DNA of 41,672 nt from Eubacteriales bacterium (lineage in GTDB: Bacteria > Bacillota > Clostridia > Lachnospirales > Lachnospiraceae), in assembly GCA_030537195.1 (NCBI GenBank), contig JAUNOK010000023.1, forward strand, positions 1-41,672, in the 5' to 3' direction. Numbering within the stretch: position 1 is the first letter of the stretch; each line of letters opens with the position of its first letter. The position numbers and the translations under genes were made by a program. Below, one piece after another: positions 28,289 to 36,236 of this stretch. The notes under the pieces were generated by a model. It did not search any database and was not told where the DNA came from. It worked only from the letters and a program-made list of their open reading frames with translations.

Positions 28289-29041
28289 TTATCCTATCAG
28301 TTCATAACTCTCATTAATCTCTCCAGCCTTAATCTGAGCCATTCTTTCAGCAATTCTGCTCTTTACGAGTTCGGCAACTTCTTTCTTCTTAAGTTCTCCA
28401 TACTCAGAATACAGAATTGGTTTCAGAAAATGAACCTGAGTATCAACTCTCTCAAATGTATTGCTGTTCATAGATTTGTATGAATCAAAAAGTGCTACAG
28501 GAACGATAGGTGTCTTAGTCTGTAAGCTGCATGAAAAGCAGCCAGCCTGAAATTCCTGAAGCTCATTCTTATTGTCAGTGTAACCGCCTTCTGGGAATAT
28601 AAGGAAGTTTCTTCCAGACTTAACCTGCTTGGTTACATCCATAATAGCTCTTACCTTATCACGGTTATTATCAAGATCAATAACAACTGCATCAATAAGA
28701 CCACATACCTGACGGCTCATAAGTCTTTCTGCCTGTTTCTTTCCCCAGAGAACGCCACAAGGTTTATCCTGTGCAAGAATAATTCCTAATGCATCATATT
28801 TTCCCTGATGATTAGGATACATTATGTAATTACTATCAGTTGGAATATTCTCTCTGCCATATACCTTTGTTCTGGTTCTGGCATGTTTTCTCATATAATC
28901 GATAATCCACTTTGCATATCTAAACCGTTCCTCTGCTGAATGACTACTTTTATTGGCAATCATCTTATTAGCCTTAGGTACAGCATGAAGCACCATGTGC
29001 CAGCTTGATATAACAGTACATTTGAAACGCAGATTAAACAT
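28289..29041 (-). CDS. PlsC-family acyltransferase (second copy in acyl operon)
   Basis: 250 residues. The HX4D motif is NHQGKYD (His78, Asp83) and the acyl-acceptor motif FPEGG lies at 149-153. These are the catalytic and substrate-binding blocks of glycerophosphate and lysophospholipid acyltransferases. There is no clear membrane helix; a hydrophobic patch near the N-terminus may bind the membrane surface. Acceptor and acyl donor are unknown; the acyl carrier protein in the same operon makes acyl-ACP a natural donor (inference). It is the last gene of the operon, 69 nt after the SGNH hydrolase, the largest gap there. It is not a close copy of the acyltransferase at the head of the operon. 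Confidence 0.85.
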   Translation of the reverse strand: MFNLRFKCTVISSWHMVLHAVPKANKMIANKSSHSAEERFRYAKWIIDYMRKHARTRTKVYGRENIPTDSNYIMYPNHQGKYDALGIILAQDKPCGVLWGKKQAERLMSRQVCGLIDAVVIDLDNNRDKVRAIMDVTKQVKSGRNFLIFPEGGYTDNKNELQEFQAGCFSCSLQTKTPIVPVALFDSYKSMNSNTFERVDTQVHFLKPILYSEYGELKKKEVAELVKSRIAERMAQIKAGEINESYELIG

Positions 29042-29110
29042 TCTAATTCCTCATCTTTCTATATAATCCCCAATCCCCGCTAATTACACAAAAATCTCCG
29101 CATGTGAGTA

Positions 29111-29797
29111 TTACTGCACATGCGAAGAAAAATATCTTTCAAAATCATCATGAATGATAGCATAACCTGCTTCATTCGGATGCATTCCATCTTTACTATA
29201 ATATGCCTTCATGTCATTAAGTGCAAGAAAACTTTCACAAAGACTTAATATTTCACAGCCATTTTCCTTTGCAACGGCTCTCATTATGTCACCATATTCA
29301 GCAAACTCATCCTTCATCTGCTGAACTGAGTTCACATATTCTGACATAATATCTTTATCTACTCCACTCTCAAGCAGATGTGAAAGATACACTTCAACAG
29401 GAATTGGAGGGGCAATTACGGCTGTAACTGCAATATCCTTTCCCTGTAACAAATGTATCATATCCTCATAATTCTTTTTAAAATCCTGCGGGGCAACTCT
29501 GTGTCTGTGTTCATAGTCACATTTACCATCACATATTGCCTTCCAGTCATAGTCACAGTCGTTACCGCCACATTCAAGAAATGCAACATCAGGTGCAGGC
29601 TGTCTTAACATTGTCTGTGTAAGCCACATTTTTACTCTCTCTGATGTGAATGTCGGCATTGCGTAATTGACAAACTTCATATTATATTGTGTCTGCATTG
29701 TCTCAAAACCGATTGCATCAGAGCTGTGGTAATTCCACGATTCGTCCGGCATAACCCCGCGCATAAGCGAGTCACCAAACATATAATATGTTTTCAT
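29111..29797 (-). CDS. SGNH/GDSL hydrolase
   Basis: 228 residues with no signal peptide. Block I is FGDSLMRG with nucleophile Ser10; block III is GGND with Asn79; block V is DGMHPNEAGY with Asp203 and His206. The catalytic set of an SGNH esterase or lipase is thus complete. Such enzymes remove acyl or acetyl groups from lipids, thioesters or sugars. It sits 10 nt after the flavodoxin-like gene within the acyl operon, which points to an intracellular lipid or acyl-thioester substrate. The sequence CDGKCDYEH (89-97) adds a Cys pair not needed for catalysis. Confidence 0.88.
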   Translation of the reverse strand: MKTYYMFGDSLMRGVMPDESWNYHSSDAIGFETMQTQYNMKFVNYAMPTFTSERVKMWLTQTMLRQPAPDVAFLECGGNDCDYDWKAICDGKCDYEHRHRVAPQDFKKNYEDMIHLLQGKDIAVTAVIAPPIPVEVYLSHLLESGVDKDIMSEYVNSVQQMKDEFAEYGDIMRAVAKENGCEILSLCESFLALNDMKAYYSKDGMHPNEAGYAIIHDDFERYFSSHVQ

Positions 29798-29807
29798 AAG
29801 CCGCCTC

Positions 29808-30554
29808 TTATCTTAAATTAGGAGCTGGAAGAGGATTCTCTGGTGTAACTGCATCCCAGTAATTATTCATAAGCTTCTCCAAAGCTCTTTGTGGAATCAT
29901 TGGCTGTGAAGCATAATCAATCATATCCTGAGGAATATCCTCACCCTTTCCCATAACCTTACCGATTTCTGTGTATCTCTTAAGATATTCATTAATCTGG
30001 TTTACCATTGGTGGAATTGCAAACATTTCACTCTGTGGACAGAGGAGAGCCTGATATCTGCCCTTGCCATAGATGAAATTAAATTCCTTGATAAGAGCGT
30101 CATATATCTCCTGGGTTCTTCCGTATCCGCATGATGATATAACATAGAACTTCTTACCGCTTACATCATAACGGAATTCATGGAATGCATTATCCCCTAT
30201 ATCTCTGACCTTACCCTTGTAAGTCTCCATAAGTGGCATGATTCTGTCAACAAATGTTTTCATTGGACCTGGCATACCGAAGAAATACAGTGGGAAACTG
30301 TATATAATTACATCGGCATTCATGAATTTAACATGAACATCCTGCATAACATCATTGATAACACACTGTCCTGCTGTCTTTCCCCAGCAGCTCATACATC
30401 CCATACATGGCTTGATATCCATGTCTCTGACTGTAAGAAGCTCAATCTCAGCTTCTGGATTAGTCTCCTTAAGTCCCTTAAGAACCGCATTTGTCATCTG
30501 CATAGTATTGCTCTTAGGTCCTTTAGGACTTCCGTTTACTACTAAAACCTTCAT
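29808..30554 (-). CDS. Flavodoxin-like NAD(P)H-dependent FMN oxidoreductase
   Basis: 248 residues. The N-terminus MKVLVVNGSPKGPKSNT is the FMN-phosphate-binding loop of the NADPH-dependent FMN reductase family. KPCMGCMSCWGKTAGQC (about 53-69) is a Cys cluster found in a clostridial branch. The middle (YSFPLYFFGMPGPMKTFVDR) matches the flavodoxin-like fold, and the C-terminal 70 residues are specific to this branch. The reaction is unknown; in this operon it could reduce an acyl chain, a quinone or a redox partner. Its ribosome binding site lies in the last codons of the patatin gene, 5 nt upstream, so the two are probably coupled. Confidence 0.85.
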   Translation of the reverse strand: MKVLVVNGSPKGPKSNTMQMTNAVLKGLKETNPEAEIELLTVRDMDIKPCMGCMSCWGKTAGQCVINDVMQDVHVKFMNADVIIYSFPLYFFGMPGPMKTFVDRIMPLMETYKGKVRDIGDNAFHEFRYDVSGKKFYVISSCGYGRTQEIYDALIKEFNFIYGKGRYQALLCPQSEMFAIPPMVNQINEYLKRYTEIGKVMGKGEDIPQDMIDYASQPMIPQRALEKLMNNYWDAVTPENPLPAPNLR

Positions 30555-30559
30555 TATAA

Positions 30560-31414
30560 TTAGTCCTCCATAAACTTCTCAAATGCTTTAAACTGTCTTC
30601 TCATTGTGTCATATCCATACTGATAGCACTGAAGAAGTTTTTCATTATTACTCTCAAAATGTCTTATCATCTGCTCCTCTGGGCGGATAACAAAAACTTT
30701 ACCCTCTTCGACAAGCTTTTTCATGAACTTATCCTGTTTGTCATAAGCCTGTCTTCTGTGAGCCATAGCCTCACAAAGCTCTGGGTACTTCTTATAGCTC
30801 CACTCAATCAGTTTCTTTACCTTAGAATAATCTGTAGGCTTAGAACCTTCCGGCTTGGTAAGCACAACAACAATCTTCTCGCACCCCTTCTCAACTGCTC
30901 TCTCAACCGGTATCGAATCAATGATACTTCCATCAAGATAATGATAACCGTCAATTTCAACAGGTTCGCATATAAATGGCACAGAGCAGCTTGCCATCTG
31001 ACACTTCAAGAATTCATCTTTAGTCTTAAAATTGCCCTTATACTCTGCCTTTCCGGTCTCACAATTCACAACAACACTCTCGCACTCTGTCTTAGACGCG
31101 AAAAATGTATCAAAATCATAAGGAATATCTTTAAGTGCATATTCTGCCACCAGCATTTCAAGATTAAGAATCTTCTTGTTCTCGAAAAGCTGTCCGACAC
31201 CATAGTAGGCTTCTGCATTCTCATGGGTAATTATCTGTTTAGTTCTTCCTTCCTGTCTGGAAACATAGTTAACTGCATTACCAGCTCCTGCAGACACTCC
31301 TATAACATAGTCATAATAAATGTCTTTCTTAAGCATGTAATCAAGAACTCCGGCTGAGAAAATACCTCTCATAGCCCCGCCTTCCAGCACAAGCCCTGTC
31401 TTTACTTTACTCAT
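30560..31414 (-). CDS. Patatin-like phospholipase (YjjU type)
   Basis: 284 residues. Oxyanion loop EGGAMRG at 11-17, nucleophile Ser41 in GVSAG (39-43), and the dyad Asp161 in DGS. These complete the Ser-Asp dyad of patatin phospholipases, which free fatty acids from membrane lipids. No signal peptide, so it acts inside the cell. Its length and the C-terminal region (KKLIEWSYKKYPELCEAM) fit the bacterial YjjU-like branch often annotated simply as patatin family. It starts 9 nt after the acyl carrier protein gene. In this operon it would be the source of free acyl chains for the AMP-forming ligase. Confidence 0.88.
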   Translation of the reverse strand: MSKVKTGLVLEGGAMRGIFSAGVLDYMLKKDIYYDYVIGVSAGAGNAVNYVSRQEGRTKQIITHENAEAYYGVGQLFENKKILNLEMLVAEYALKDIPYDFDTFFASKTECESVVVNCETGKAEYKGNFKTKDEFLKCQMASCSVPFICEPVEIDGYHYLDGSIIDSIPVERAVEKGCEKIVVVLTKPEGSKPTDYSKVKKLIEWSYKKYPELCEAMAHRRQAYDKQDKFMKKLVEEGKVFVIRPEEQMIRHFESNNEKLLQCYQYGYDTMRRQFKAFEKFMED

Positions 31415-31423
31415 AAGCGCCTC

Positions 31424-31651
31424 TTATTTAGCGTTAGCTTCTACATAATCAACAATATCTTTAACAGTTTCAAGCTTTGCATCAGAGCTGAATCTGATCT
31501 TGAATTCATCCTCAACAGTAATAGCAAGTAACATCATATTAAGAGAATCCACTCCTAAATCTGTTGTAAGAACGCTGTCCATTGTAATAGTTGATGGATC
31601 GCACTGTGGCATAACCCTTCCAAAAATCTCCTTTAACTTCTCGAATACCAT
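31424..31651 (-). CDS. Acyl carrier protein (dedicated to the acyl operon)
   Basis: 75 residues, acidic and helical, with the phosphopantetheine attachment motif LGVDSLN (Ser36). Length and pattern are those of an ordinary type II acyl carrier protein. It is not next to fatty acid synthase genes but between an AMP-forming ligase and a patatin lipase, so it is likely a second, specialised carrier. AAGGAG lies 8 nt upstream of the ATG. Confidence 0.93.
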   Translation of the reverse strand: MVFEKLKEIFGRVMPQCDPSTITMDSVLTTDLGVDSLNMMLLAITVEDEFKIRFSSDAKLETVKDIVDYVEANAK

Positions 31652-31686
31652 AATTGAATCTCCTTTTCTCTAATATAATTCTATTT

Positions 31687-33171
31687 CTAAGCCTGGTTTC
31701 TTAATATCTTCATTGCGCCATTTCTCTTGAAATCATCTTTACGCATCTTAAGTTTAAGCACTCTCTTGAACGGAGGAAGTTCCTTATTAACTTCATTAAC
31801 AACGTCCTGTAACCGCTTCTCTATCTCTTCCTCAGATGCTCCCTCTAATTCTGGCATATATGGAATAATCTCAACACCAATAACTGTGTTTCCATTCATT
31901 TCCATCTCCTGCACAAGGCAATCCTTTACAAGTGGCTGCTTGTAGAATAATTCTTCAATCTCCTCTGGTGATACATTTTCACCATTAGGAAGAATAATAA
32001 GGTTCTTGATACGGCCTGTAATATATATCCAGTCATTATCATCAAACTCTACAAGGTCACCAGTCTTAAACCATCCATCCTCAAATACTTCTGCTGTATG
32101 CTCAGGATCTTTGTAATATTCCTTCATTACATTGTCACCCTTAATCCAGAGTTCTCCGTTAACAACCTTAACCTGCTGTTCTGGATAAATGTGTCCCATA
32201 GACTCAGGCTTCTGATCCGTATTACAGTTACCTGCTGTGAGGTTTGCACACTCTGTAAGCCCATAACCCGCACATAATGTAATTCCAAATTCACGACATT
32301 CTGCCATCTGTCTTGGAGGAACAGGTGCAGCTCCGCACATGATAAGCTCAAGGTCTCCTAAGAACGCTCTGCCCTTAGCTTTTGCAATGTTAAGGATAAT
32401 CTCAACAAGTCCCGGAACAAGTACAAGTGTTGTAGGTCTTACAACTGGAATATCACCAATTGCGGCTCTCATATCAACGCATGTGTATGTAAGTGAGCCA
32501 GTATACAACTTAGCCATATAACCCATAATAGCACCAAATATGTGTGAAAGCGGAAGCATTGCTATATATCTCTTATGAAGAATATTTCCTGGTCCGAATA
32601 CACCGTTAAATGAGCCTCTCATAATAGAACCATGGCTGTGAACAGCGCCCTTAGGTGCTCCTGTAGTTCCTCCTGTAAAGAAGATGGCTGCTGTAGTATC
32701 CTTCTTCACATCTGCAAACGCGCTTTCTGTCTCACCAATAGAAGTGCTTGGCCATGTCTTGCAAGGTACATTAGCTGTAACCTCAGTAAATTCCTTGCCA
32801 ACAAACATTCCGGCAAGATCGAACTTCATGCTGATTCCTGCAAGTGCCTTATCATTAAGTGCATTAGGAAGCATAATAAGTACATGTCCTGCCGCTGGAA
32901 TTGCAAGGAACAGTTCCATTGCATCAAGATCATTCTTTGCAAGAACGGCAATATTAGAACCTTTTTCAAGTCCTAATGAATTAATAAATGTAACTCTCTT
33001 AGCCACCCTTGAAACAAGTTCTTCATATGTATATGTAGTAACCTTGTCACTTATGGCAGGATAATCAGAATATTGTTTCTTAATAAAATCAAGAAACTTT
33101 GGAATAGTTGGAATATATTCCAGAGTCTGCATCTCTTCTGGAGTTACCATATTATAAAAATAATGATCCAT
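31687..33171 (-). CDS. AMP-forming acyl-CoA/acyl-ACP synthetase
   Basis: 494 residues from the ATG at 33171 (AAGGAG at 7 nt); an ATG six codons earlier has no clear site. It belongs to the ANL superfamily: phosphate loop TGGTTGAPKG at about 166-175, then GYGLTE, GWFKTGDLVEF and GRIKNLI, all intact. The C-terminal domain ends in a typical KRNGAMKIL. These enzymes activate a carboxylic acid as acyl-AMP and pass it to CoA or to a carrier protein. The carrier protein gene directly downstream makes acyl-ACP synthetase the preferred reading (inference). The substrate, probably a fatty acid, is not determined by the sequence. Confidence 0.87.
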   Translation of the reverse strand: MDHYFYNMVTPEEMQTLEYIPTIPKFLDFIKKQYSDYPAISDKVTTYTYEELVSRVAKRVTFINSLGLEKGSNIAVLAKNDLDAMELFLAIPAAGHVLIMLPNALNDKALAGISMKFDLAGMFVGKEFTEVTANVPCKTWPSTSIGETESAFADVKKDTTAAIFFTGGTTGAPKGAVHSHGSIMRGSFNGVFGPGNILHKRYIAMLPLSHIFGAIMGYMAKLYTGSLTYTCVDMRAAIGDIPVVRPTTLVLVPGLVEIILNIAKAKGRAFLGDLELIMCGAAPVPPRQMAECREFGITLCAGYGLTECANLTAGNCNTDQKPESMGHIYPEQQVKVVNGELWIKGDNVMKEYYKDPEHTAEVFEDGWFKTGDLVEFDDNDWIYITGRIKNLIILPNGENVSPEEIEELFYKQPLVKDCLVQEMEMNGNTVIGVEIIPYMPELEGASEEEIEKRLQDVVNEVNKELPPFKRVLKLKMRKDDFKRNGAMKILRNQA

Positions 33172-33207
33172 AACCTTACTCCTTTTCATTATAATAATAA
33201 ACTTTTG

Positions 33208-33825
33208 TTACTTTCTAAGCTGTTCTACAGCATTACGGAATCTCTCACATTCTCCTGCAAGATATTCAGCATTAAGTCCCTTACCTTCTTTAGTAAGTTC
33301 CATTGGTTCGCCAACGTACAGTTTAAGTCTCTTCCCAAACAGCTTATGATATTCTCCGTTATTATATACCGGAACAATCTTAGCTCCTGACATTACTGCA
33401 AGCATTGCAAATCCGGGTTTGAACTCATCCATAATACCAGTCTTGGAAGTATGACCTTCTGGAAATATAATCATGTTATCACCGGCCTTAAGATGCTCTG
33501 AAGCTCCTCTTATCCAGGTAATATCCGTTCCAAAACGGTCAACCGATATGAATTTGCCACCACTTGTAAGCCACTTAAGAATCTTCTTGTCAGCCCAGTC
33601 CTTGGCTATTATGAGGACACTGTTTCTAAAAAGCATATAAAACATCTGTCCGTCATTATGTCCCACATGGTTACCAATGAATATGACTCCGCCTTTTTCA
33701 ATCTCCTCTTTCGCCTTTCTGCTTTGATAACATATCTTAGGTCTGAACATAATATACAGGTAAGCATATAAAAGACCTCTTCCCATACTGGCTGTTACAT
33801 TAATAAATGCGTTTTTCTTTTTCAT
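33208..33825 (-). CDS. PlsC-family 1-acylglycerol-3-phosphate acyltransferase (first copy)
   Basis: 205 residues. The HX4D motif is NHVGHND (His53, Asp58) and FPEGHTS lies at 121-127. Short and close to the common PlsC layout. It heads the seven-gene operon, with GAGGG 7 nt before the ATG, and follows the TetR-type operator-promoter region. The neighbouring ligase begins about 37 nt after it. Two different acyltransferases in one operon suggest two acylation positions or two acceptors. Confidence 0.87.
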   Translation of the reverse strand: MKKKNAFINVTASMGRGLLYAYLYIMFRPKICYQSRKAKEEIEKGGVIFIGNHVGHNDGQMFYMLFRNSVLIIAKDWADKKILKWLTSGGKFISVDRFGTDITWIRGASEHLKAGDNMIIFPEGHTSKTGIMDEFKPGFAMLAVMSGAKIVPVYNNGEYHKLFGKRLKLYVGEPMELTKEGKGLNAEYLAGECERFRNAVEQLRK

Positions 33826-33902: not shown

Positions 33903-33937
33903 AACATACAATATGTTTCTAATCAACATTGTATGTT
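33903..33937. promoter_or_regulatory. Paired palindromic operators, probable TetR binding sites
   Basis: AACATACAATATGTT (33903-33917) is a 15-base palindrome and AACATTGTATGTT (33925-33937) a 13-base one. The outer arms AACATACAAT and ATTGTATGTT are also exact inverted repeats of each other. The second site covers the -10 of the acyl operon promoter and the first covers its early transcribed region. Size and symmetry suit a TetR dimer, and the TetR gene is divergent. Confidence 0.75.
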
Positions 33938-34035: not shown

Positions 34036-34118
34036 ATATTTAGTTCAAAAATACCGAGTTTATCCTTTCTTTACAGGTATTTTATACGCAATTAATAATT
34101 GGATGATTGGAGGCTTAT

Positions 34119-34724
34119 ATGGATAAATCATTAGATACTAATCCTGTTACAGAAGCTAAACCTGACCGCAGAATTCTGAAGACCAAGAAAGCAATTTATG
34201 AAGCTTTAGTAGAACTTATGCAGAAGAAGAAACTTAACTCTATTACTGTTACCGAACTTGCTGCGGCAGCCAATATCAATAGAAAAACATTTTATACTTA
34301 TTATTCAACAGTTAATGATGTTCTGGATGAAGGAATTAATGAACTTATATCTTCACTGAAAGACCTTATGTATGCTATGTCGGAAGATTACAACATGTTA
34401 TCCCCACAGACATTATTTGCATTTCTTAATACAATTATGGCTGACGCAGATATCGTAAGAGATCTTTTTGCTTCAGATAACGGCAATATGCTGTTTAACA
34501 GACTTCAGAAAGCATTACAGGAGACACTGCTTAAAGAACTGGTTGATAATGACATCAAGATGAACGTTCCACCTGAACAATATCCTTTAATATCTAGTTT
34601 TGTTGCTGGTGGAATGGTTTCTGTATATTATGAGTGGATAACCAATCCTGGTGAAACTTCACTCGATGATATGGCCCGTACACTGACAACACTTATCATT
34701 TCAGGCATTCACGCATTTGCATAA
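34119..34724 (+). CDS. TetR/AcrR-family transcriptional regulator
   Basis: 201 residues from the ATG at 34119 (GGAGG at 5 nt). The N-terminal helix-turn-helix is classic: ILKTKKAIYEALVELM, ITVTELAAAANINRKTFYTY, YYSTVNDVL. The C-terminal 130 residues resemble the TetR_C_8 type ligand or oligomerisation domain. It is divergent from the seven-gene acyl operon, with palindromes in between that suit a TetR dimer, so it most likely represses that operon and responds to an acyl compound. It is followed after 9 nt by a second DNA-binding protein gene, with the intergenic AAGGAG starting inside the stop codon. Confidence 0.9.
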   Translation: MDKSLDTNPVTEAKPDRRILKTKKAIYEALVELMQKKKLNSITVTELAAAANINRKTFYTYYSTVNDVLDEGINELISSLKDLMYAMSEDYNMLSPQTLFAFLNTIMADADIVRDLFASDNGNMLFNRLQKALQETLLKELVDNDIKMNVPPEQYPLISSFVAGGMVSVYYEWITNPGETSLDDMARTLTTLIISGIHAFA

Positions 34725-34733
34725 GGAGATATA

Positions 34734-36236
34734 ATGACATTTAACGACAAGTTCAAGTTCCTGATGGACATAACTAACACTAATAATACTACACTTGCTG
34801 CCGCTATCGATATTGATAACTCGGCTGTCAGTCTGTACCGCAATGGCAAAAGAAAATGTCCCCGTAATAAAGATGTAGTCAAAAGAATGGCGGATTATTT
34901 TGCAGGAGTCATAAACCTTAATTATCAGCGCAAAGCGCTTGCACTTGCTGCCGATTATTCACGTTTTAACCACTCAAGACCTGTATCCGAATATTCAGAC
35001 ATGCTTTATCAGTGGCTTACTGACGAACTGCCAGAACCTAATAATCTCGTAGACAGTATTCTCAATGAAAGCGTACCTTCACCATCATATAACAATATAC
35101 AGGGAATCAGAACCATTGATGTCGTTCCCAATGCCACAAGCGTACTATACAGATCCGCCGGCAAACGCCAGGCGATTCTCAGTTTTATTAACTACCTCCT
35201 GACGCTTGAAGACCCGGCAACCATCTATGTATGGGTAGATGATGATGTATATAGCATATTTGATAACAAAGATATTATAGATTCCCTACAGGAACTTATT
35301 ATGAAGCTTTTAGACTATGGATATGAAATATGCCGTATTTCACCATCACCAGTTAACACAACCCAGTTTTTTGAAGAATTCTTCTACTGGATTCCTGCAT
35401 ACCTTACAGGCCGTGTAAAATCATACTATTATCCAAGAATGAGAGACAATCTTTTTTCCAAGATAAGCATAATATATCCAGGATATGCAGCTGTATATTC
35501 CGACAGCCTGTCTTCTATTCCTGATAAAACATTTACTGTACTTACTGCTGAATCAGCAATTGTCTCAACAAAGGAAGTTGAATTCAAGACATTTTTATCA
35601 TACTGCCGCCCAACAATGAACATATATGAATCCGCCGAAGATGTTTCAATATGCTTTCAGAGAATTCTGAATACTCCAACCACTCATATTCAGAAGGGAC
35701 TTAGCCTGCCTCCGGCAGCAATGCCAGCAGAACTTATATCCCAGTTTCTGTCTGACAACCCTGACAGCCTTGGTGTAAGTATGAAAACATCTTATCAGAG
35801 TAATACAATATTTGACGGTATGCGTAATGTTGACATATGTCCTCTTGCAACAGTCCGGCAGATTCTTACCGGACGCGTTCCCGTAATATTTCCTGTTGTC
35901 AAGCAGAATGTTCCTGTATATTACACACCCCGGACATATGCCATGCACCTTAGAAATGTAGTAAATATAATGGATACACATCCTGATTATTACTTTGTTC
36001 CCATCGAATATAAACCTGATGATAATGTATGTATAATTGTTAATGAAGGTTCTGAAGCGCTGCTCATCAGGACAGCTCTTCCAAGTATGGTCTTTGATTT
36101 TAACCATCCACAGCTTGTCCAGAACTTTCAGGAATATCTTTACAGGATTGCCAATGAAGTTGGTTATTCTGATATTCATCGTAAGAAAATACGCGCGCAG
36201 CTAAAAGAACTGATATCAGCACTTGAAAAAATCTAA
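34734..36236 (+). CDS. HTH-domain protein of unknown family, coupled to tetR
   Basis: 500 residues. The first 70 contain an XRE-like helix-turn-helix (TTLAAAIDIDNSAVSLYRNG, then KRKCPRNKD). The remaining 430 are a soluble mixed alpha/beta region that I do not recognise. It includes a repeated theme of hydrophobic strand plus aromatic residues (for example PVNTTQFFEEFFYWIP) and ends in a helix KKIRAQLKELISALEKI. No catalytic motif, membrane segment or signal peptide is visible. Translational coupling to tetR suggests that it regulates the same acyl operon or senses a related state, perhaps as a one-component sensor with a large ligand domain. This is a guess from position. The stop runs straight into the terminator at 36235-36278. 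Confidence 0.7.
   Translation: MTFNDKFKFLMDITNTNNTTLAAAIDIDNSAVSLYRNGKRKCPRNKDVVKRMADYFAGVINLNYQRKALALAADYSRFNHSRPVSEYSDMLYQWLTDELPEPNNLVDSILNESVPSPSYNNIQGIRTIDVVPNATSVLYRSAGKRQAILSFINYLLTLEDPATIYVWVDDDVYSIFDNKDIIDSLQELIMKLLDYGYEICRISPSPVNTTQFFEEFFYWIPAYLTGRVKSYYYPRMRDNLFSKISIIYPGYAAVYSDSLSSIPDKTFTVLTAESAIVSTKEVEFKTFLSYCRPTMNIYESAEDVSICFQRILNTPTTHIQKGLSLPPAAMPAELISQFLSDNPDSLGVSMKTSYQSNTIFDGMRNVDICPLATVRQILTGRVPVIFPVVKQNVPVYYTPRTYAMHLRNVVNIMDTHPDYYFVPIEYKPDDNVCIIVNEGSEALLIRTALPSMVFDFNHPQLVQNFQEYLYRIANEVGYSDIHRKKIRAQLKELISALEKI

Follow-up and report, generated by a model that had tools for sequence, protein, structure and literature searches.

A predicted acyl-transfer operon of gut Lachnospira and its probable partnership with a separate fused-ketosynthase locus

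What use does a bacterium have for an operon that combines an acyl-activating ligase, an acyl carrier protein (ACP) of its own, two acyltransferases, two hydrolases and a flavin protein? The question is raised by seven genes at positions 28289-33825 of contig JAUNOK010000023.1 (assembly GCA_030537195.1, a Lachnospiraceae bacterium), which was analysed over a stretch of 41,672 nt, here called the window. A first-pass annotation had noted that no ketosynthase (KS) was present and read the set as a closed loop that recycles or imports acyl chains. The operon proved to be real, and some gut Lachnospira bacteria conserve it. However, a dedicated locus for a ketosynthase fused to a chain-length factor (KS-CLF) lies elsewhere in the same genome and is clustered with the operon families in relatives, so the recycling inference from the absent ketosynthase fails. 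Most likely, the operon is the transfer arm of a split pathway rather than a closed recycling loop. We propose, with a probability of about six in ten, that it is the activation, transfer and hydrolysis arm (arm A) of a split, dedicated type II lipid pathway of the polyene type, similar to those for aryl polyenes (APE) and granadaene, with the synthase locus as arm B.

The seven genes lie on the reverse strand, as annotated at first, and were confirmed by Pfam at family cut-offs, which all seven open reading frames (ORFs) passed. From plsC1 to plsC2 the families are Acyltransferase (PlsC), AMP-binding, PP-binding, Patatin with DUF6363, Flavodoxin_2/FMN_red, GDSL lipase and again Acyltransferase. 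PlsC1 (33208..33825, 205 aa; PF01553, 4.3e-18) is an acyltransferase of the lysophospholipid/acyl-ACP type and PlsC2 is the second acyltransferase (28289..29041; PF01553, 2.3e-18); both carry NHx4D and FPEG. Between them lie an ANL ligase of 500 aa for acyl or aryl acid activation (31687..33189; PF00501, 1.3e-53), the predicted loader of ACP1, in which the core motifs TGGTTGxxKG, YGLTE and KTGD are all present, and ACP1, a dedicated carrier protein of 75 aa with the serine of LGVDSL (31424..31651; PF00550, 5.1e-9), besides which the source genome holds three further PF00550 loci. These are followed by a patatin-like lipase with DUF6363 (30560..31414; PF01734 and PF19890) and intact GVSAG and DGS motifs, the flavodoxin-type redox protein Isf1 (29808..30554; PF02525/PF03358), and an SGNH/GDSL hydrolase (29111..29797; PF13472, 2.4e-16) with intact GDSL, GGND and DxxH. 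We take all these motifs to have the functional meaning that is usual for their families. The gaps along the operon are 18, 35, 9, 5, 10 and 69 nt, so the spacing of mostly 5-37 nt noted earlier applies to all but the last.

Within its genus, to which Lachnospira eligens also belongs, the operon is kept as a unit. A ligase search of 22 genus genomes gave nine matches at 1e-40, five of which are operon orthologues (87-100% identity, L. eligens included); the other four are partial, at 36-38%, and were counted apart. All seven genes occur in the same order in each of the five genomes with a ligase orthologue, the SGNH hydrolase included. The set is thus conserved, and the first-pass description of it as having a carrier protein of its own and a pair of acyltransferases holds. 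Scattering of the genes in neighbouring genomes, which had been named as a refutation of the first-pass reading, was not seen within the genus; outside it, order and content change. Median ratios of nonsynonymous to synonymous substitution (dN/dS) range from 0.020 for Isf1, the lowest of nine genes tested, to 0.133 for the SGNH hydrolase, the highest of the seven operon genes (10 pairs, with some dS values near or past saturation). The operon is under purifying selection within the genus. In L. eligens it is located on the 626-kb plasmid (NC_012780.1).

The link to a synthase was suggested by a relative. The ligase relatives nearest among 250 family genomes were found in the genomes G224, G017 and G187. 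In G017, the order is TetR, Mntp-like, plsC1, ACP, patatin, Isf, plsC2 and ANL, directly followed by ACP2, KS-CLF, ketoreductase (KR), FabZ-like, FabD-like acyltransferase (AT) and carboxyltransferase genes. Because operon families and synthase are contiguous there, the same synthase was sought in the source genome. A PF00109 search identified a fused KS on its contig C27, outside the window (locus L199, about 8.4-19.1 kb), and in L. eligens (NC_012780.1 221557-232834); FabF was the only other PF00109 protein of the source genome. In L. eligens, arm B reads TetR2, alpha/beta hydrolase, ACP2, KS-CLF (797 aa), KR, FabZ, AT, AccD, AccA (an ORF missing from the PLSDB table), Isf2, PlsX2 and an arginase-family gene. 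The source genome keeps this order at 92-100% identity, with the alpha/beta hydrolase left without a match. Both arms of L. eligens are carried by the same plasmid, 39.9 kb apart.

The fused protein has the features of a KS-CLF pair. Its KS half retains Cys-His-His. In its CLF half the Cys is replaced by Gln, as in nine of ten aligned Lachnospiraceae fused proteins, and the histidines are missing. Such a replacement together with the loss of the histidines typically marks a chain-length factor. A tree of the two halves has long branches and was used for motifs only.

The distribution of the two arms supports their association. Of the 22 genus genomes, 4 carry the fused KS: four of the five with the operon and none of the 17 without it (Fisher p=0.0007, in a test that ignores relatedness and in which 9 of the 22 assemblies fall short of the 90%/5% quality mark). 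When the KS-CLF protein was searched in 397 family genomes, 298 matched at E<=1e-60, and nearly all matches listed cover one FabF-type half. Among the matches listed, nine span the full fused protein, and without the source genome and G020 these give seven orthologue loci outside the genus (46% identity or more), two of which (L213, L219) end at contig ends. A PlsC1-like gene is present at all seven (30-44%), an Isf gene at five and a patatin gene at four (45-52%), and the SGNH hydrolase at none. A short, weak PlsC2 match at L213 (29% over 59 residues, within the PlsC1 gene) was excluded from the PlsC2 count. Directly beside the synthase lie six of the seven operon families in G017 and five in G683, which lacks patatin; identities of these clusters to the window are 45% for ANL and 45-50% for PlsC2. 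In G696, G042 and G023, a TetR gene diverges from patatin and PlsC1, followed by ACP2, KS-CLF, KR and FabZ.

The KS-CLF loci were compared by Fisher tests with 20 hand-picked housekeeping FabF loci. At these, PlsC1, PlsC2, patatin, Isf, ANL and SGNH were each found 0 times in 20, and ACP in 15. PlsC1, patatin and Isf were also absent from the regions fetched for three distant fused-KS loci (G020, G924 and plasmid pBM500; 29-33% identity), of which that of G020 (32%) lacks the CLF Gln. The link is therefore a property of this particular KS-CLF group. Across 398 genomes sampled from the phylum, KS-CLF matches at 1e-90 were confined to the source genome and G924. We consider it likely that arms A and B are functionally coupled.

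From the gene content, motifs, order, conservation and genomic association of the two arms we infer reactions, substrates, a polyene product and a role for the Isf proteins as follows. Arm B would build the chain: AccDA and the FabD-like transferase would provide malonyl-ACP2, the fused KS-CLF would elongate the chain on ACP2, and KR and FabZ would process it. No enoyl reductase was annotated or typed in arm B next to KR and FabZ. Double bonds therefore probably remain in the chain, unless it is reduced by the Isf proteins or by FabK of the housekeeping set. Strong FabK matches (TIGR03151) are confined to the housekeeping fatty acid synthesis locus in the source genome and L. eligens, with weak partial matches elsewhere in these genomes, and FabI, FabL and FabV were not searched genome-wide. 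On ACP1, the ANL ligase would load a carboxylic acid starter or put freed chains back. Transfer of the acyl group to lipid acceptors is predicted for PlsC1, PlsC2 and PlsX2, and its release for patatin and SGNH hydrolase, with a possible redox step on the chain by the Isf proteins. The apparent lack of a dedicated enoyl reductase, an inventory similar to that of APE and the 33% identity to a Priestia megaterium fused KS suggest a polyene-type product, a tentative assignment to which we give slightly less than even odds; the chain may also be saturated or hydroxylated.

The redox step concerns a protein first described as a flavodoxin-like FMN reductase. The flavodoxin-like fold is supported at the sequence level by PF02525/PF03358; the cysteines point to a different type of flavin protein. 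C50-x2-C53-x2-C56-x7-C64 and C142 are invariant in eight of eight aligned cluster homologues, and the spacing fits the compact iron-sulfur flavoprotein (Isf) motif CX2CX2CX5-7C, as given in the available part of its description (PMC3164229). Because this CX2CX2CX7C pattern is invariant, we assigned the protein to the Isf type by motif, with predicted binding of FMN and a 4Fe-4S cluster. Against this label, none of 17 PDB profile matches carries the name iron-sulfur flavoprotein; they are named Cd1, azoreductase, Trp repressor binding protein or quinone reductase. The top NCBIfam match is likewise an azoreductase model, below its cut-off.

Several observations weigh against the proposed split pathway. 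Since G017 first suggested the link, six of the seven loci outside the genus are independent evidence. The complete operon family set occurs at none of the seven, and ANL, ACP1 and PlsC2 together at two. The full-length ligase frame of G017 (L032:8304-9824) has lost TGGTTGxxKG and the C-terminal lysine, and ANL activity is accordingly dispensable in some clusters. No exporter, phosphopantetheinyl transferase (PPTase) or FabH gene is annotated within the L. eligens arms, and at the threshold used no 10-mer is common to the upstream regions of arms A and B. In the genus genome G265, the seven operon genes are kept under constraint and the syntenic arm B site retains only the AT. If that assembly is correct, the operon can persist, and perhaps function, by itself. 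Finally, ANL, ACP and two PlsC genes occur at L108, L109 and L033 in regions where KS-CLF is absent; some clusters of this type have an ANL-ACP fusion or genes for a major facilitator superfamily (MFS) transporter, DegV, FakA or LRAT-PPTase, and one related ANL-ACP-PlsC module lies beside DegV and FakA genes. It follows that the module can also serve outside fatty acids.

Part of this evidence fits the self-contained loop of the first-pass annotation, in which acyl groups are recycled or exogenous fatty acids incorporated as by a dissected Aas: patatin and SGNH hydrolase would release or trim lipids, ANL would load freed or imported fatty acids on ACP1, and the PlsC pair would re-esterify them. 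The modules at L108 and L109, with no KS-CLF in the regions fetched, agree with this, as does the similar set of G187 (L033), whose only match to KS-CLF is of the FabF type, and both PlsC proteins have weak NCBIfam similarity, below cut-off, to Aas-type proteins. However, the synthase clusters with PlsC1-like and patatin genes outside the genus, four of the five operon-bearing genus genomes carry KS-CLF, and an LplT-like transporter is lacking among the operon genes. As the main function, recycling is thus unlikely; because most of arm B is missing in G265 and the operon is not, it is a possible second use. Formation of fatty acid amides, for which ANL and ACP would present fatty acids as in OaaA/OaaACP/OaaC of Coprococcus eutactus, is suggested by several next-nearest ANLs that adjoin an ACP and by their large neighbours, of which the two tested (L036, L049) proved to be condensation domains. 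We rejected it as highly improbable, since the condensation domain PF00668 had no match in any of five genomes, source genome included.

The position of the operon suggests yet another function, acylation of an envelope polymer made by the adjoining capsule or exopolysaccharide (EPS) locus (cpsB/C/D). The gene cpsB lies 62 nt downstream of plsC2 in the window and is next after plsC2 in four of the five operon-bearing genus genomes. On the other hand, it is missing next to the operon in the region fetched for G264, on which ground an EPS-tailoring operon was rejected, and beside the seven KS-CLF loci outside the genus, where neighbours given to Pfam include no EPS gene. This makes polymer acylation very unlikely, and the split lipid pathway is retained as the preferred explanation.

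The divergent regulator seen in the first pass was confirmed as TetR-type (34107..34724, forward strand, with an ATG at 34119). TetR_C_8 scored above cut-off (PF14278, 8.8e-12) and TetR_N, with 22.6 bits, slightly below its cut-off of 24. In a comparison of nine TetR proteins, it gave its best E-values with those of the KS-CLF clusters of G023, G696 and G042 (30-32% identity). A candidate TetR operator, assigned by consensus only, is the inverted repeat CATACAAT-N15-ATTGTATG at 33905..33935, which overlaps a promoter-like -10 element (TACAAT). The repeat lies within a block conserved across five genus genomes, in two of which the second half-site has diverged, and was seen solely at arm A. Transcription from one promoter, as first assumed, is not established: a consensus scan gave 35 sites versus 24.6 +/- 4.8 in shuffled sequence, and three of the five genomes (G250, which is L. 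eligens, G256 and G264) have GC-rich inserts of 239-673 nt at the plsC1/ANL and ANL/ACP junctions, so a single transcript is not assured. These inserts are mutually related, with inverted self-matches (L. eligens region L081, 10074-10721 and 12219-12662; also L079 and L080), and the 20-base core that was tested is absent from the window. Rfam gave no match in the window, L080 or L081. A repeat of about 65 nt occurs in an intergenic gap of both arms (L199:17220-17288; L. eligens patatin-Isf1 gap, G250:C2:274928-274987) and matches many contigs genus-wide. After TetR follows a gene for a 500-aa protein (34734..36236, forward strand), whose membership of the system is uncertain. It has no Pfam or NCBIfam match at the limits used, is next after TetR in all five operon-bearing genus genomes (74-84% identity in the other four), and was not found at the seven KS-CLF loci outside the genus.

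Further relatives were noted at other sites. Acyl-ACP thioesterase genes, possible further pathway parts, lie about 10 kb from arm A of L. eligens (NC_012780.1 289340-290056) and next to Isf in the G696 cluster (L212:1433-2203). A contig scan based on the ligase alignment relied on generic motifs and is not a census; L106-L109 were among the matches listed. L106:9001-10746, from a metagenome-assembled genome (MAG) labelled Bacteroidales, encodes a ligase 52% identical to that of the window and an ACP, the only members of the query set found there, which may reflect transfer or mis-binning. In a Clostridiales MAG, L107:6782-12018 has an ANL-ACP pair with TetR, SGNH and PlsC-like genes nearby; it may be a reduced form of the operon, in which patatin and Isf gave no match. 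Generic relatives of PlsC2 (14 of 18 fetched regions) had no other operon gene in their regions by blastp at the chosen cut-off, and a scan of viral contigs confirmed no relative.

L. eligens lives as a symbiont in the human gut. Detection rules that expect a single cluster could overlook a dedicated lipid pathway whose genes are divided between two loci of a large plasmid, and the two-locus hypothesis gives clear predictions for pigment and lipid analysis. In a more elaborate and rather doubtful version, L. eligens and related bacteria would produce a membrane lipid not yet described, with a polyene or otherwise unusual chain built by a plasmid-borne split type II synthase and put into glycerolipids by dedicated PlsX/PlsC enzymes, in which two Isf proteins act as chain-modifying reductases instead of an enoyl reductase. 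For known clusters, roles are on record: the accessible text on APE reports protection from oxidative stress and envelope attachment (PMC8253772), and that on a Limosilactobacillus reuteri polyene cluster activation of the aryl hydrocarbon receptor (PMC6498181).

As the first-pass annotation had stated, no named system of this composition is apparent: literature searches, whose coverage excluded most subscription papers, returned no description of the pathway. Lysophospholipid repair by Aas and LplT combines an Aas fusion protein with the LplT transporter. It shares the ANL and PlsC functions with the operon, in which they are unfused and come with an ACP of their own and a synthase partner, and no LplT is found among the seven genes. 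With the Oaa amide clusters of gut Clostridia, as far as the available text describes them (PMC13142362), the stand-alone ANL and ACP are common, and the Lachnospira system lacks the condensation domain. The L. reuteri fun/pks polyene clusters are described, in the part available, as containing KS, ACP, KR, dehydratase (DH), malonyltransferase and Acc subunits, with a pksB KS of 688 aa, a size suggesting fusion (PMC6498181). Fused KS, ACP, KR, DH and AT of these and granadaene-type clusters are also present in arm B. Likewise, pBM500 of P. megaterium has a fused KS 33% identical to that of arm B, with KR, FabZ, ACP, AT, GcvT-like and PPTase genes. Within the Lachnospira arms no GcvT-like, PPTase, MFS or ABC gene is annotated, although GcvT-like and PPTase genes occur at pBM500; they carry PlsC, ANL, patatin, Isf and PlsX instead, and PlsC1, patatin and Isf are missing at pBM500.

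The APE cluster of Gram-negative bacteria, here that of E. coli, shares its enzyme classes with the Lachnospira arms. According to the available text (PMC8253772), it comprises an acyl-ACP synthetase, two ACPs, KS and CLF, KR, DH, a lysophospholipid acyltransferase (LPLAT) and the thioesterase ApeK, the matching genes being ApeD, E/F, H, K, O/C, Q and I/P. By family, the set of acyl-ACP synthetase, dedicated ACP and LPLAT is complete in the window (ANL, ACP1, PlsC1/2), and the Lachnospira arms have lipases in place of ApeK. The PF00109 search gave no second, ApeR-type KS in the source genome, and no RND (resistance-nodulation-division) exporter, LolA, LolB or glycosyltransferase is annotated within the L. 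eligens arms. Compared with APE, the Lachnospira system has KS and CLF fused, is divided over two loci, adds Isf, PlsX and AccDA, and belongs to a Gram-positive anaerobe.

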